A stretch of DNA of 37,714 nucleotides, taken from positions 1-37,714 of the forward strand of contig NZ_JADCBK010000024.1 of assembly GCF_020253525.1 (NCBI RefSeq), read 5' to 3'. Made by a program: the position numbers and the translations under genes. This document shows positions 597-6,437 of the stretch, piece by piece. Under the pieces are notes generated by a model. That model saw nothing but the letters and a program-made list of their open reading frames with translations, searched no databases and was not told where the DNA came from. This stretch comes from Aquidulcibacter sp. (GTDB taxonomy: Bacteria; Pseudomonadota; Alphaproteobacteria; Caulobacterales; Aquidulcibacteraceae). Position 1 is the stretch's first letter; every line of letters begins with the position of its first letter.

Positions 597-3500
597 CTAA
601 AACTCCGCCACCAAATCCACGCCAGACGCGCTCTTCAAGGCCCGCCTTGCTGCGACGTCGATGGGGAAGCGGCCGGGGGCTTGGATTTCGACTTCGCGGC
701 CATCGGCCAATTCAACCACGACGCGTAATTCACCAAAGCTGGAGGAAGTGGCGCCGCGCAAGGTCTCGGTCACGCGGGCAAGTTCTTCGATGGGTGCGCC
801 GCGAGCAAGGAAGACTTTAATGCCAGCACAACCCGACATGTCAGTCTGGTCTAGCAATTCAATCTTTTCTGCCGACAGCTTCAAATCACCATCGCGCAGG
901 CGCGCTTTGGCCCGGAAACTCACCGATGTGCCGGGCTCGAGATAGTCGCGCGCTTCATTGAGGGTCTCGGGCATGATCATGACTTCAAACTCACCCGTCG
1001 GATCACTCAATGTCACCCACGCAAATTTACCGCCATCCCGCGCCGGCCGCTCTTTGCGGGCCCGGACCACGCCCGCCATGCGGAAGATCGCATCAGACCC
1101 CTGCATTTTGGACTGAATCTCTGAGAAAAAGACTGTCTGGCGGCGGCGCAGCGCTTCAATCAAATCATCAAGCGGGTGGCCCGATAGGAAGAGGCCGAGG
1201 GCGGCAAACTCATTATCCAAACGCTCTTGCGCCGACCAGGGTTTGACGCTGGGCAAAGGGGCCCGCGGCGGCGGTGCCGCATCGCCAAAGAGGCTGGTCT
1301 GCGCACTTTGCCGGTCTGAAGCTGCCGCATTGGCATGGGCGACCAATTGATCAGATGAGGCAAATACCAAAGCGCGATTGGGCTCAATCGAGTCAAAAGC
1401 CCCGGCCTTGGCTAAAGTCTCCCACGTGCGGCGACCCAGAACGCGCGGGTCCACCCGTTCCGCCAAATCATGCAAGGACTTAAACTTCCCGCCTGCTTGG
1501 CGGATTTCTACCACTTGCGCCATCGCCGCGACGCCCACAGACTTGATGCCGCCTAAAGCATAGCGAATGGCATTATCTTGGACGGTAAAGTCCGCCTCGG
1601 AATAATTAAGATCGGGCGACAACACTTTGATCTTCATGCTTTTTGCCTCTTGCATGAAGGCACCCAGTTTATCGGTATCATCAATATCAAGCGACATGGA
1701 TGCGGCCATGAACTCAACCGGATGATTGGCCTTGAGATAGGCGGTTTGATAGGCGATAACCGCATAGGCGGCGGCGTGGGACTTGTTGAAGCCATAGCCC
1801 GCAAATTCGCTCACCAATTCAAAGATGCGGTCAGCAAGCTCGCCATCCACGCCGCGTTCGGTCGCCCCGCTGACAAAGCGGTCTTTTTGTTTGGCCATTT
1901 CTTCGGGCTTCTTTTTACCCATGGCGCGACGCAAAAGATCGGCTTCCCCTAAAGAATAGCCCGACAGGATCTGGGCGATTTGCATCACCTGTTCCTGATA
2001 AATGATGACGCCTTGGGTTTCTTTGAGGACCGAAACCAAGCTTTCATGCAGATAATCGGCTTCTTTGCGACCAAATTTCACGTCGCAATAGGTCTCAATA
2101 TTCTTCATCGGGCCGGGGCGATAAAGCGAGATCAAGGCGATGATGTCATCAAGCGTATCGGCGCGCATTTTGCGCAACGTGTCGCGCATGCCTTGGCTTT
2201 CCAACTGAAACACGCCCATGGTCTTGCCAGAGGCCAAAAGCTCGTAGGTTTTGGGATCATCAAACGGCAAGGTGTCGAGATCAACCACGATGCCGCGTGC
2301 CTTCAAAAAGTCTAAGGCGCGCTGAATCACGGTGAGGGTTTTAAGGCCCAAGAAGTCGAACTTTACAAGGCCTGCAGGCTCCACCCACTTCATGTTAAAT
2401 TGGGTGGCAGGCAGACTGGAACGGGGGTCCTTATAAAGCGGCACCAGCTCATGCAGGGGCCGATCGCCAATCACCACACCCGCAGCATGCGTAGAAGCGT
2501 TGCGGTAGAGGCCCTCAAGCTCGATCGCGGCATCAAGAAGCGTGCGCACATCGGCATCGCGCGACCGCTCTTCTTGCAAGCGCGGCTCATCCTTAATGGC
2601 TTGGGCCAAAGTCACCGGTGCAGCGGGATTATTCGGCACCATTTTGGCCAGCCGGTCGACTTGGCCGTAGGACATATCCAAGACGCGGCCCACATCGCGC
2701 AGGGCCGCGCGCGCCTGCAAGGTGCCGAAGGTGATGATTTGGGCAACCCGATCTGCGCCATATTTCTTCTGCACATACTCAATAACTTGATCGCGCTTTT
2801 CCTGACAGAAATCGATATCGAAGTCAGGCATGGAGACGCGTTCTGGGTTCAAGAAGCGCTCAAACAAGAGGCCGAAAGCGAGGGGATCAAGGTCGGTAAT
2901 GGTCAGCGAATAAGCAACCAGAGAGCCAGCGCCCGAGCCCCGTCCGGGGCCGACTGGGATATTGTTTTCCTTAGACCATTTGATGAAATCGGCAACGATC
3001 AGGAAGTAGCCCGCAAACCCCATGCGGTTAATCACATTGATTTCGTGTTCTAGCCGCTGCTCATAAATTTCGCGGGCCACAACAGGCGGGCGCTTTAACA
3101 GGCGCGCTTCCAAGCCTTGGCGCGCTTGGGTGGCCAATTCTTCGGGCTCATCGCGCCCTTCGGCAGTCGTAAAGCGCGGCAGGATAGGCGCGCGCATCAG
3201 GGGGCGGATGGCACAACGCCGGGCAATATCCACACTATTGGCCAAAGCCTCAGGCAGGTCGGCAAATAAAGCGACCATATCGGCTTCGCTTCTGAAATAA
3301 TGATTGGGCGAGACACGCTCTCGCTTGTCATCGGCCACACGCGTAGCCTGACCAATACACATCAGGATATCTTGCGCGCGATGCCGCTCAGGGCTGTCAA
3401 AGCGCACATCATTGGTGGCCACCAGTGGCAAATGGGCTTGATAGGCCAGATCAATCAGAAGCGGCTCAACCAGGGCTTCATCGGCTAAGCCGTGGCGCTG

Positions 3501-4199
3501 CAGCTCGACATAAAGGCGATTGGGAAAGGCCTTGGCCAAGTGCCGCACCAAGATATCGGCCTCGGACTTCAGATTGGCCGCAAGGGCGCGGTTCAACAGC
3601 CCTTCCCGCCCCCCGGTAAGGCAGATCACACCTTCTCTATGCTCCAGCACGTGGTTTAGGCCGACATGGGGCAGGCTGCCTGCTGGTGCCTCAAGGAAGG
3701 AGAGGCTGGAAAGCGCCATCAGATTGGCCCAGCCCTTTTCATTTTGGGCAATCAGCGCCAAACTACCATCAGGTCCTGCTGCTGCGCCGGGCTTTTGACT
3801 TAAGAAGGAAACAGGCAGGGTTAAGCCCATGATGGGCTGAATGCCTTTTTCGGCCAAGGCTTCTGAAAATTCGAGCGCACCAAACAGGTTTGGGTCTGAG
3901 ATGCCGACAGCGACACATCCTGCCTTCGCAGCATAGCCCGCGAGCTTCTTGACCGTCATCGCGCCATCCAGCAGCGAATAAGCCGACCGCACCCGCAAAT
4001 GCACAAAACCGGGGCCTGCCAGAGCGGGCCTTACCGCATGCCGGAAACCACTTGGCCCAGAGCCAACAAATTCGGCACCAACAGGTTCAACTCCACCGGG
4101 ACCAGAACCAACAGGCTCTGAACCAACTGTCCCAGCGACATCACCCGCGCCCTGACCATGGCCAGAGAAGTCGCCGCTAGAGAAAGTATCATCCGCCAT
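597..4199 (-). CDS. dnaE: DNA polymerase III alpha subunit
   Basis: This is the replicative DNA polymerase catalytic subunit (C family), 1200 aa. An N-terminal PHP domain begins near residue 62 (FVHLRVRSAYSLLDG). The polymerase active site carries the Asp pair in MPDFDIDF (about residues 457-464). A helix-hairpin-helix/OB region lies near the C-terminus (FRMAGVVRARKERPA...TLSDPTGEFEVMIMP). ATG at 4199 is preferred because AGGTGG lies 5 bases upstream; a GTG at 4232 would add 11 residues but has no good ribosome site. The first ~60 residues are an unusual Gly/Pro/Val/Glu-rich low-complexity stretch with repeated GSGP and EPVG units. It lies 106 bases downstream of the SOS-boxed micropeptide gene and may share its transcript. 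Length and motifs fit the essential DnaE rather than the mutagenic DnaE2, as no imuA/imuB genes are adjacent. Confidence 0.97.
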   Translation of the reverse strand: MADDTFSSGDFSGHGQGAGDVAGTVGSEPVGSGPGGVEPVGAEFVGSGPSGFRHAVRPALAGPGFVHLRVRSAYSLLDGAMTVKKLAGYAAKAGCVAVGISDPNLFGALEFSEALAEKGIQPIMGLTLPVSFLSQKPGAAAGPDGSLALIAQNEKGWANLMALSSLSFLEAPAGSLPHVGLNHVLEHREGVICLTGGREGLLNRALAANLKSEADILVRHLAKAFPNRLYVELQRHGLADEALVEPLLIDLAYQAHLPLVATNDVRFDSPERHRAQDILMCIGQATRVADDKRERVSPNHYFRSEADMVALFADLPEALANSVDIARRCAIRPLMRAPILPRFTTAEGRDEPEELATQARQGLEARLLKRPPVVAREIYEQRLEHEINVINRMGFAGYFLIVADFIKWSKENNIPVGPGRGSGAGSLVAYSLTITDLDPLAFGLLFERFLNPERVSMPDFDIDFCQEKRDQVIEYVQKKYGADRVAQIITFGTLQARAALRDVGRVLDMSYGQVDRLAKMVPNNPAAPVTLAQAIKDEPRLQEERSRDADVRTLLDAAIELEGLYRNASTHAAGVVIGDRPLHELVPLYKDPRSSLPATQFNMKWVEPAGLVKFDFLGLKTLTVIQRALDFLKARGIVVDLDTLPFDDPKTYELLASGKTMGVFQLESQGMRDTLRKMRADTLDDIIALISLYRPGPMKNIETYCDVKFGRKEADYLHESLVSVLKETQGVIIYQEQVMQIAQILSGYSLGEADLLRRAMGKKKPEEMAKQKDRFVSGATERGVDGELADRIFELVSEFAGYGFNKSHAAAYAVIAYQTAYLKANHPVEFMAASMSLDIDDTDKLGAFMQEAKSMKIKVLSPDLNYSEADFTVQDNAIRYALGGIKSVGVAAMAQVVEIRQAGGKFKSLHDLAERVDPRVLGRRTWETLAKAGAFDSIEPNRALVFASSDQLVAHANAAASDRQSAQTSLFGDAAPPPRAPLPSVKPWSAQERLDNEFAALGLFLSGHPLDDLIEALRRRQTVFFSEIQSKMQGSDAIFRMAGVVRARKERPARDGGKFAWVTLSDPTGEFEVMIMPETLNEARDYLEPGTSVSFRAKARLRDGDLKLSAEKIELLDQTDMSGCAGIKVFLARGAPIEELARVTETLRGATSSSFGELRVVVELADGREVEIQAPGRFPIDVAARRALKSASGVDLVAEF

Positions 4200-4248
4200 A
4201 GGGCCACCTGAATCCGTCGACTGAATCACCACCAGAAAGGGGCTTAGT

Positions 4249-4275
4249 CTGACAGGACTCTGAGGCCTCTGTCAG
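4249..4275 (-). other. Hairpin between the SOS micropeptide gene and dnaE
   Basis: CTGACAG (4249-4255) and CTGTCAG (4269-4275) form a perfect 7-bp stem around a 13-base loop that contains AGGCCT. There is no T-run after it on the minus strand, so it is not a standard terminator. It could be an attenuator, an mRNA-processing structure or chance. Confidence 0.35.
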
Positions 4276-4305
4276 CCCTCGCCGACAGAAATCTTAAAGC
4301 CATCC

Positions 4306-4392
4306 TCAGCCGATGACAGCGCCCCAACCCCAAGCCATGAGGGTGAAAGCGAGAATTGCTGCGAAAGCGGCTGCGTCTTGAAGTTGGGCCAT
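4306..4392 (-). CDS. SOS-controlled single-TM micropeptide, SidA-like (28 aa)
   Basis: This short reading frame encodes 28 residues. It starts MAQLQDAAAF, has a hydrophobic segment over about residues 7-20 and ends WGWGAVIG. That is one membrane helix with almost no charge. The start is supported by GAGGTGG just upstream (AGGTGG then AAC then ATG). A LexA-type operator, GAAC-N7-GAAC, lies 15 bases upstream and overlaps a plausible -10 box. In Caulobacter, SidA is a 29-residue SOS-induced inner-membrane peptide that binds FtsW and blocks division. I recall that it is encoded beside dnaE, but cannot verify that here. Size, topology, operator and neighbourhood all match, so a division-inhibitor role is the leading inference. 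No sequence alignment was possible. Confidence 0.75.
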   Translation of the reverse strand: MAQLQDAAAFAAILAFTLMAWGWGAVIG

Positions 4393-4406
4393 GTTCCACC
4401 TCGTTT

Positions 4407-4421
4407 GTTCTGCCTTCGTTC
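4407..4421 (-). promoter_or_regulatory. LexA (SOS) box, GTTC-N7-GTTC
   Basis: The plus strand reads GTTCTGCCTTCGTTC, which is GAAC-N7-GAAC in the direction of transcription. This is the direct-repeat LexA operator known from Alphaproteobacteria. It overlaps the -10 element of the putative promoter. Extra GTTC half-sites lie at 4393-4396 and 4434-4437 with non-canonical spacing. Confidence 0.85.
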
Positions 4422-4446
4422 TATTCTTGTTTTGTTCTCATGGCAA
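4418..4446 (-). promoter_or_regulatory. Putative promoter of the SOS micropeptide (and perhaps dnaE)
   Basis: On the minus strand TTGCCA (4446-4441) and TAGAAC (4423-4418) are separated by exactly 17 bases. The -10 shares its GAAC with the LexA box, so repressor binding would block polymerase. Transcription would start roughly 20 bases before the micropeptide ATG. Confidence 0.6.
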
Positions 4447-4486: not shown

Positions 4487-5167
4487 TTAGTCCTGTACGA
4501 GGCGGCCGCCCTCTATGCGGAACACGCGGTCCATTTGCCGGGCTAAATCAAGATTATGGGTGGCAACCAGAGCGGAAGTCCCCTCCTCCCGCGTGGCTTT
4601 GCGGAAGGTATCAAACACAAAGCTGGAGGTGGCAGGATCCAGATTGCCAGTGGGCTCATCGGCGATCAAAAGGGCCGGTTGATTGGCAAGGGCGCGCGCG
4701 ATGGCAACGCGCTGTTGCTCGCCGCCCGAGAGTTGGCCGGGCTGGTGCAGTTTCCGGTCAGCCAGCCCCATCATGTCGAGAAGTTGCTCTGCCCGTGTGC
4801 GCGCTTCGGCTTGGCCAACGCCTGCTATCCATTGTGGCAGGGCGACATTATCAACCGCGCTAAACTCGGGCAGCAAATGGTGGAATTGATAGACAAAGCC
4901 CAGCGCGGTGCGGCGCAGCGCAGTGCGCGCGGCGTCAGGCAGTTTTGTGGCATCAATGCCTGCAAGCTCGACCGTCCCGCCTTGGGCGGCTTCTAACAGG
5001 CCAGCGGCATGGAGCAGCGAGGACTTGCCCGAGCCTGAAGGGCCAATCAGGGCGACGATTTCGCCGGGCATAATGGTGAGGTTGACGCCCTTGAGAACTT
5101 CAAGCTCGCCCGCGCGGGTCTGATAGACGCGGCGTAAATCGGTGAGGCGCAGAACCGGGCTACTCAT
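4487..5167 (-). CDS. lolD: Lipoprotein-releasing system ATP-binding protein
   Basis: This is the ABC ATPase that powers extraction of outer-membrane lipoproteins from the inner membrane to LolA. In 226 aa it shows Walker A GPSGSGKS (42-49), a Q-loop [17 protein letters not shown] that is characteristic of LolD, the signature LSGGEQQR (146-153), Walker B LLIADEP with TGNLD, and an ATHN H-loop. The start is ATG at 5167, which overlaps the end of the preceding permease gene by 8 bases. An upstream in-frame extension (to 5248) would only read through the permease C-terminus and is rejected. The length is close to the family's usual ~230 aa. Confidence 0.95.
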
Positions 5168-6437
5168 AGCGAAGCGCCTCCACCGGATCGAGCTTAGAGG
5201 CGCGCCACGAGGGCGGCAGCGTGGCGACAATGCTGGCAATGGCCGCAAACACGGCCGTTGTAATCACCTCATGCCATTCCACTTTGGCGGGGATTTGGCT
5301 TAAGAAATAAATATCGGCATTGAAGACGGGGCCAAACACAAACTCCACGACTTTTTGGATGGTGCCAATATTGAGGCAGAATAAGGTGCCGCCAATGGCC
5401 CCGGCTAGGGTGGCAAGAATGCCCACACTGGCCCCCGACATCATGAATACCCGCATGATCGAAGCACGCGAGGCCCCCATGGTGCGCAGAATGGCGATAT
5501 CGCGACCCTTGTTCTTGACCAGCATAACAAGGCCAGAAATGATATTCATCGCGGCAATGGCAACGATCAGCATCAGGATTAAGCGCATCACATTCCGCTC
5601 AATCTGCAGGGCAGAGACAAGGCTTTCCGATTGCTGACGCCAGTCGGTCACAAAGCGGTTTTGGCTGAATTTCGCAACTTCCTGCGTCAGAAGATCCGCC
5701 TTGTCTGGGTCCTCAATCCGCAACTCAATCGTGTCCCAAGAGGTTTCTTTCGAGAAAAAGAGCTGGGCTTGTTCGATCGGCATATAGATGAAGGTGGCAT
5801 CATATTCGCTCATGCCGATGTCGAATATGGCCGAGACGGTGTAATCCTTCACCCGCGGCGTGGTGCCAAAGGGGGTAGAGGCCCCTTGTGGCGAAATCAA
5901 TTGCACCGAATCCCCCGGCAAGACGCCCAAGGCTTCGGCCAGGCGAGATCCCATGGCGATCTCGTCGCCGCCATAGTCACCCTTGCCCCAACTGTTGAGA
6001 TTGCCGCCGACCAGATTGCCCGAAACAATTTTGAGCTTGGCGAGGTCAGACGCTGCAAGGCCCGTGACCATCGCCCCGCGCGCTAAGGTGCCGCCTTGGC
6101 CAACAGCCATGACTTGGCCATCGATTTTGGGCATGACATCCACCACACCGGGCAGCGTTTTGGCTTTGGCGACAATGGCGCGCGCTTCTGGGATCGGCAT
6201 ATTGCGCACGTCAATAAAAACATGGCCATTGACCCCTAAAATGCGGCCCAATAATTCTGCCCGAAAGCCATTCATCACGCTCATCACGATGATGAGCACA
6301 GCCACGGCCAGAAAAATGCCGATAAAACTGATGAGCGAGATCAAAGCGACCCCGCCATCTTCACGCCGAGCCCGCAGATAACGTGCGGCTAGCGTGCGCT
6401 CCCACATGCCAAATGGCCCCGCGCTGCCAGCTTTCAT
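5160..6437 (-). CDS. lolC: Lipoprotein-releasing ABC transporter permease, LolC/LolE (LolF) type
   Basis: This is the inner-membrane permease of the Lol export complex, 425 aa. The N-terminus [30 protein letters not shown] leads into TM1 (about 30-52). A periplasmic MacB-like domain (about 53-285) follows, then three C-terminal FtsX-type TM segments (about 285-310, 335-360, 385-410), ending in the family tail [12 protein letters not shown]. Only one permease is present beside lolD. This is the arrangement in Alphaproteobacteria, where one LolC/E hybrid probably forms a homodimer, so LolC and LolE cannot be separated by name. Its ATG overlaps the proS stop (ATGA), and its own 3' end overlaps lolD. 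Confidence 0.93.

Follow-up and report, generated by a model that had tools for sequence, protein, structure and literature searches.

The window, by which we mean the whole 37,714-nucleotide stretch of an Aquidulcibacter sp. contig that was analysed, carries on its minus strand a frame of 28 codons, MAQLQDAAAFAAILAFTLMAWGWGAVIG, between a lolD-like transporter gene and dnaE, both of which are read in the same direction. The frame opens with ATG at 4392 and closes with TGA at 4306, and the features of the region, in the order in which they would be transcribed, are:

4487..5248, minus strand: ABC transporter gene, lolD-like by reading of its frame, with a likelier start near 5167
4418..4446, minus strand: putative promoter TTGCCA-N17-TAGAAC, read from sequence, its spacer and -10 covered by both LexA boxes
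4423..4437, minus strand: distal LexA-like box GAACAAAACAAGAAT, imperfect at one position and lying within the promoter spacer, kept in 9/9 same-genus genomes
4407..4421, minus strand: proximal LexA box GAACGAAGGCAGAAC, perfect GAAC-N7-GAAC, overlapping the -10, perfect in 8/9 same-genus genomes
4396..4401, minus strand: putative ribosome site AGGTGG, read from sequence, varying within the genus
4306..4392, minus strand: 28-codon gene of a probable SidA-type micropeptide, from its frame, genus conservation, codon-position bias and profile
4269..4288, minus strand: stem-loop CTGTCGGC-GAGG-GCTGACAG with no T-run, between the peptide stop and dnaE
597..4232, minus strand: dnaE, for the replicative alpha subunit of DNA polymerase III, its frame opening at GTG 4232 (TIGR00594, 1182 bits)

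An earlier sequence-only reading had described a perfect LexA box overlapping the -10 of a promoter with 17-bp spacing, followed by an AGGTGG ribosome site and a 28-codon frame for a single helix. This description holds, coordinates included, on the minus strand, which that reading had left unstated; the second, imperfect box at 4437-4423 had escaped it. The claim also survived comparison with relatives, where frame or box might have been missing, as the peptide is 93-100% identical in all nine same-genus genomes (among 101 related genomes searched) and the boxes are kept. Across the 84 aligned coding columns of the nine congeneric genomes, variable columns fall at codon positions 1/2/3 in the proportion 1/0/18, with a pooled pN of 0.010 against a pS of 0.369. 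By this comparative evidence the frame is a real gene under strong purifying selection as a protein, with predicted translation into 28 residues that form a single hydrophobic helix (hydropathy 1.84 over 17 residues). The window peptide has no Pfam or NCBIfam match, and six family peptides gave none against NCBIfam; a Pfam zinc ribbon match for one relative (E 0.033, under the family cut-off) was dismissed as chance.

Taken by itself, the perfect LexA box is at chance level and proves nothing: the window holds one against 0.73 expected in shuffles, 49 of 100 shuffles hold at least one, and the whole genome (3.49 Mb) holds 53, the same pattern read backwards being commoner. It is the location of the box, with its conservation in the genus, the order and beyond, that greatly exceeds chance expectation. 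Among congeners, G005 is the one genome with a change in the proximal box, and 69 of the 91 located family members have two or more boxes, none with more than one mismatch, in the 120 nt ahead of them. The putative promoter (TTGCCA at 4446-4441, TAGAAC at 4423-4418) is weak by consensus and was not detected by a standard sigma-70 consensus scan of the window. Reading 30 of the 53 perfect boxes of the genome as loci showed that several frames have such a box 12-124 nt ahead of their earliest possible start; in NCBIfam these frames match RecA, LexA, UvrA, SSB, ImuA and RuvC, as well as DnaB, a helicase of the PcrA/UvrD type and an ATPase of the YifB type. Most of these scores fall under whole-protein cut-offs because only the first 116-180 residues of each frame were scanned, the LexA frame being cut by a contig end. 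Most of the remaining boxes among the 30 adjoin no gene recognisable as SOS, as expected from the chance rate. Two of these loci deserve mention in their own right: one (L022, C66:10411-10425) has a perfect box 46 nt before the start of the replicative helicase DnaB, a second replisome gene beside a LexA-type site, and another (L003, C4:10688-10702) has its perfect box 30 nt upstream of a frame apparently encoding a membrane pyrophosphatase.

The position upstream of dnaE provides a search for relatives that does not depend on the peptide sequence. A search for the DnaE N-terminus succeeded in 168 of 170 order genomes and in 276 of 289 class genomes, from which we examined 92 regions of the order (30 best loci, 60 picked from the order list and two from the class search) and, among the best DnaE matches, 106 further regions of the class (27 loci and 79 regions). 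Chosen in this way, the samples lean towards DnaE sequences closest to that of the window. A region passed when a perfect box lay at most 500 nt from the dnaE match and an ATG frame of 22-60 residues, with hydropathy above 1.3 over 17 residues, started at most 100 nt after the box. This arrangement was found in 60 of the 92 order regions and 19 of the 106 other class regions, close to the numbers with a perfect box with or without a frame (61/92 and 20/106), and in none of the 198 opposite strands (box present in six) or 3,960 dinucleotide shuffles. Within the class sample, perfect box and hydrophobic frame together are limited to 11 families. Allowing one box mismatch yielded 92 peptides, one of which (G237) was judged spurious.

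The distribution has gaps. None of nine examined genomes of family f2 passed the rule, nor did any of 11 examined genomes from six genera of the window's own family f1 (g3, g5, g8, g9, g11 and g14), where G012 of g5 has a box and no qualifying frame. Moved copies were sought in 24 genomes, namely G011, G013 and 22 chosen since they, or genus or family mates, were without box and frame before dnaE; besides the known relatives in G011 and G013, this search returned only weak matches (E >0.01), mostly inside long frames, and no convincing moved copy. The profile search described below likewise gave no convincing match elsewhere in the genomes of f2 or of the six f1 genera, and the absence of both kinds of match from several genera of f1 suggests that the peptide can be lost. 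The relative in G013 (L041, C215:2319-2402) is a SidA-type peptide with a box nearby; dnaE is absent from the 1.5 kb that follow it, and the downstream frame there looks like a radical SAM/B12 protein.

The closest described counterpart is SidA of Caulobacter, reported as a 29-residue, LexA-controlled inner membrane protein that binds FtsW (PMC4211646, PMC12700426). A scan of named genomes with the DnaE start gave 37 loci, 35 of which were examined. In 25 of the 26 loci assigned by title to Caulobacter, Brevundimonas, Phenylobacterium and kin (L262-L287), a helix frame of 29-32 residues precedes dnaE, the exception (L271) having 42 nt of upstream sequence only. Boxes that are perfect or have a single mismatch occur in 24 of the 26 (in L276, one-mismatch boxes only); the two loci lacking one are L271 and L272, where the contig provides just 42 and 137 nt of upstream sequence, respectively. 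Box and frame were found together in none of nine loci from Dongia, Cypionkella, Pseudorhodobacter and others (L288-L296). In C. vibrioides DSM 9893 (L263) the order, with names read from translations, is a lolD-like gene, a nucleoside hydrolase gene on the opposite strand, the boxes with a 29-residue helix frame, and dnaE. Started from an in-frame ATG farther upstream, the peptide would have 40 residues, against the published SidA length of 29, and sidA is listed among genes whose annotated start was corrected (PMC4117421). Published tags identify sidA as CCNA_02004 (PMC10769358), CCNA_02005 as a nucleoside hydrolase (PMC3667746) and dnaE as CC1926 (PMC1839093). From these tags and the gene order, rather than from comparison with the SidA sequence, we infer that the 29-codon frame before dnaE in L263 is sidA.

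Peptides were scored with position matrices against a background of 2,872 transmembrane windows and 295 decoy frames. Of 55 other peptides scored with a matrix built from Caulobacteraceae (f3) alone, 37 exceeded the 95th percentile of the transmembrane windows and 19 the 99th; the window peptide came no higher than the top 3.2%. With a matrix from all families except f1, the window peptide reached 23.1 bits, against a maximum of 14.2 among the transmembrane windows, and stood above all decoy frames but two, both of which are the G011 relative itself. Of 78 distinct peptides, 60 have an acidic residue no more than five positions ahead of the helix core, compared with 50 of 295 decoys; this residue anchors a signature of two hydrophobic residues, R/K/Q, D/E, any two residues, A/G/S, L/F, any four, G/A/S, F, any one, W, any four, W and G/A, these being the commonest residues and not invariant ones. 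The matrices point to homology with Caulobacter SidA through intermediate families, the link through Caulobacteraceae alone being weak.

A sequence profile (A1) made from 25 of the box-linked peptides was run over whole genomes, the profile rows themselves being among its matches. At E<=0.05 it found matches in 100 of the 170 genomes of the order and in 34 of the 289 of the class, some of the weaker matches lying inside long frames. Within the order, all 75 placeable matches at E<=1e-4 lie upstream of dnaE on the same strand within 700 nt, with four more for which no dnaE place was listed; 87 lie upstream of dnaE and three elsewhere at E<=0.01, and 90 and 11, respectively, at E<=0.05, corresponding to 90 of the 150 order genomes for which a dnaE place was entered. 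In the order, the distance from the end of the matched helix to the DnaE match downstream has a median of 84 nt (range 18-335). Outside the order, 12 of 13 placeable matches at E<=1e-4 are likewise placed before dnaE, the exception (G115) lying at the edge of another contig. The peptide is thereby recognised in four families within the order and, by profile at this threshold, in six families of other orders. Eight matches that were not profile rows were read, and in six of them (L347, L357, L358, L360, L370 and L372) a perfect box begins 36-67 nt ahead of the matched stretch, the other two (L361 and L366) having no perfect box. The boxless match in G200 (L366) looks like a helix of another protein. 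The fragmented assembly G291 has matches at C84:4352-4417 and C77:7006-7089, neither on the listed dnaE contig, and the one of them that was read (L361) has no box. As delineated by the profile, the predicted dnaE-linked SidA family is patchy but widespread over the alphaproteobacteria.

The place next to dnaE, the LexA boxes, the length, the topology and the profile link to C. vibrioides sidA together make the window peptide very probably a SidA orthologue, in support of the SidA-type assignment of the sequence-only reading. The window peptide and SidA (Caulobacter crescentus/vibrioides, CCNA_02004) are both single helices, of 28 and 29 residues, from the same order of bacteria, with LexA boxes in the promoter, dnaE next on the same strand and a common signature with an acidic residue at the helix start. 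They differ in that pairwise identity is 11% in the alignment, that the upstream neighbour is lolD-like in the window and a nucleoside hydrolase in Caulobacter, and that the window peptide has QD instead of RE and ends in WGWGAVIG. The lolD-like protein of the window aligns at 58% in locus L120, on the 5' side of the relative's peptide there.

Between the peptide stop and dnaE, the stem-loop is conserved within the genus. Its consensus fold in the same-genus alignment reaches -23.9, compared with -12.4 +/- 2.9 for column shuffles, none of 100 being as low, and it forms in eight of nine single-sequence folds, the exception being G007, which has a broken pair. At the base of the stem, eight genomes have C-G as the terminal pair and G006 has A-T, a paired change. 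The element might act as a weak transcript end, as a site of processing or in stabilisation. The sequence-only reading had dnaE following on the same strand without a clear terminator, so that its expression may also rise in SOS; the strand is indeed the same and a consensus scan of the window detected no terminator, and the conserved stem-loop between the two genes lacks a T-run.

Three other readings of the locus have to be weighed. Under LexA control, the peptide could depolarise the membrane in the manner of TisB and DinQ, as a type I toxin that slows metabolism and leaves the divisome unblocked. It belongs to the same size class, is hydrophobic and lies under LexA boxes. TisB of Escherichia coli is a tiny hydrophobic peptide under LexA with membrane effects and antisense control, and we know of no link of TisB or DinQ to dnaE. 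DinQ of E. coli is described in PMC3567139 as an SOS-regulated, LexA-controlled, tiny hydrophobic peptide, toxic and with a single transmembrane segment, which differs in its membrane effects and antisense control. The orthologous place and the profile link to sidA make this reading very improbable. A regulatory leader, an upstream reading frame whose translation would tune dnaE together with the stem-loop while the peptide itself has no job, would account for the steady position ahead of dnaE, both within the order and outside it, and for the stem-loop that the congeners have downstream of the stop codon, ahead of dnaE; against it stand the purifying selection on amino acids, the residue signature common to the families, the box-linked relative L041, without dnaE in the 1.5 kb behind it, and the action of sidA itself as a protein (PMC4211646), and we regard it as very improbable. 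A chance box beside a chance frame, which the expectation of 0.73 perfect boxes per window would allow, is refuted by the conservation, the dnaE-linked recurrence and the profile scores, and its probability is negligible.

We have high, though not complete, confidence in the reading of the window peptide as the SidA orthologue of this Caulobacterales genus, acting as a LexA-controlled division block through FtsW. In the Caulobacter model (PMC4211646), SidA holds FtsW/I/N inactive, and the ftsW substitutions A31K, F145L and A246T confer resistance to SidA; low-confidence models in PMC13396833 place SidA on TM7 of FtsW. In a residue check of five genomes, with G473 and G071 left out, C. vibrioides FtsW has A31, F145 and A246 at those numbers, and FtsW of the window's genome keeps F145 and A246 and has I at residue 31. 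The resistance sites, the two kept residues and the TM7 models led us to choose a division block through FtsW as the proposed mechanism. In this scheme LexA bound to the two neighbouring boxes would cover the promoter and keep the peptide gene silent. DNA damage would lead RecA to trigger self-cleavage of LexA, and the peptide would be made and enter the inner membrane as one helix. There it would hold the FtsW/FtsI/FtsN septal synthase inactive so that division waits until repair is done. Damage induction, membrane insertion, FtsW contact and division arrest are all carried over from Caulobacter by analogy and should be understood as predictions. Four observations count against the SidA reading: the Caulobacteraceae-only profile ranks the window peptide no higher than the top 3.2% of transmembrane windows, so that the link needs intermediate families; FtsW A31, the residue at which A31K blocks SidA in Caulobacter (PMC4211646), is I here; the perfect box is at chance level; and the examined genomes of six genera of the peptide's own family have neither box with frame nor a convincing profile match.

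Other phyla also have small membrane proteins that are induced by DNA damage and block division at a late step. YneA of Bacillus carries a LysM domain. With SosA of Staphylococcus and ChiZ of Mycobacterium it belongs to this functional class, and a 2026 paper proposes FtsW as a target common to YneA, SosA, ChiZ and SidA, models SidA with low confidence on the opposite side of TM7, and describes ChiZ with and SosA without a LysM domain (PMC13396833); our comparison with these proteins is by description. Within Caulobacter, DidA is also a small single-transmembrane division inhibitor acting on FtsW/I/N, which differs in having 71 residues, in being induced by DriD independently of SOS and in binding FtsN (PMC4211646). 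Checkpoint peptides of the SidA type are already known, and the interest here lies in the broader dnaE-linked SidA family with its patchy spread over the class. Among the literature matches listed, at the level of titles and the beginnings of abstracts and outside the founding SidA paper (Modell 2011), there was no report of a link between sidA and dnaE or of relatives of SidA throughout the class. The published SidA work covered in this way concerns one genus, and the combination of place, operator and residue signature now allows recognition where pairwise search fails. The signature residues, that is, the acidic residue at the helix start and the small residues and tryptophans in the helix, are candidates for tests of FtsW contact.

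The constancy of the dnaE link invites a broader and more tentative proposal. SidA might be one branch of an old alphaproteobacterial SOS checkpoint family wired to the replicative polymerase gene, with sidA and dnaE forming one damage-inducible unit in which a single LexA-controlled promoter provides both the division halt and the polymerase supply, and the stem-loop sets their ratio; we consider this possible, although on balance doubtful. The steady link makes a shared damage-induced transcript, for polymerase supply together with division block, directly testable. As to dnaE itself, ATG 4199, preceded by AGGTGG, is a likelier start than GTG 4232. From there, the window DnaE has about 60 residues rich in G, P, S and V (4005-4199, minus strand), with a repeated GSxPVG-like pattern, ahead of the usual FVHLRVRSAYS start.
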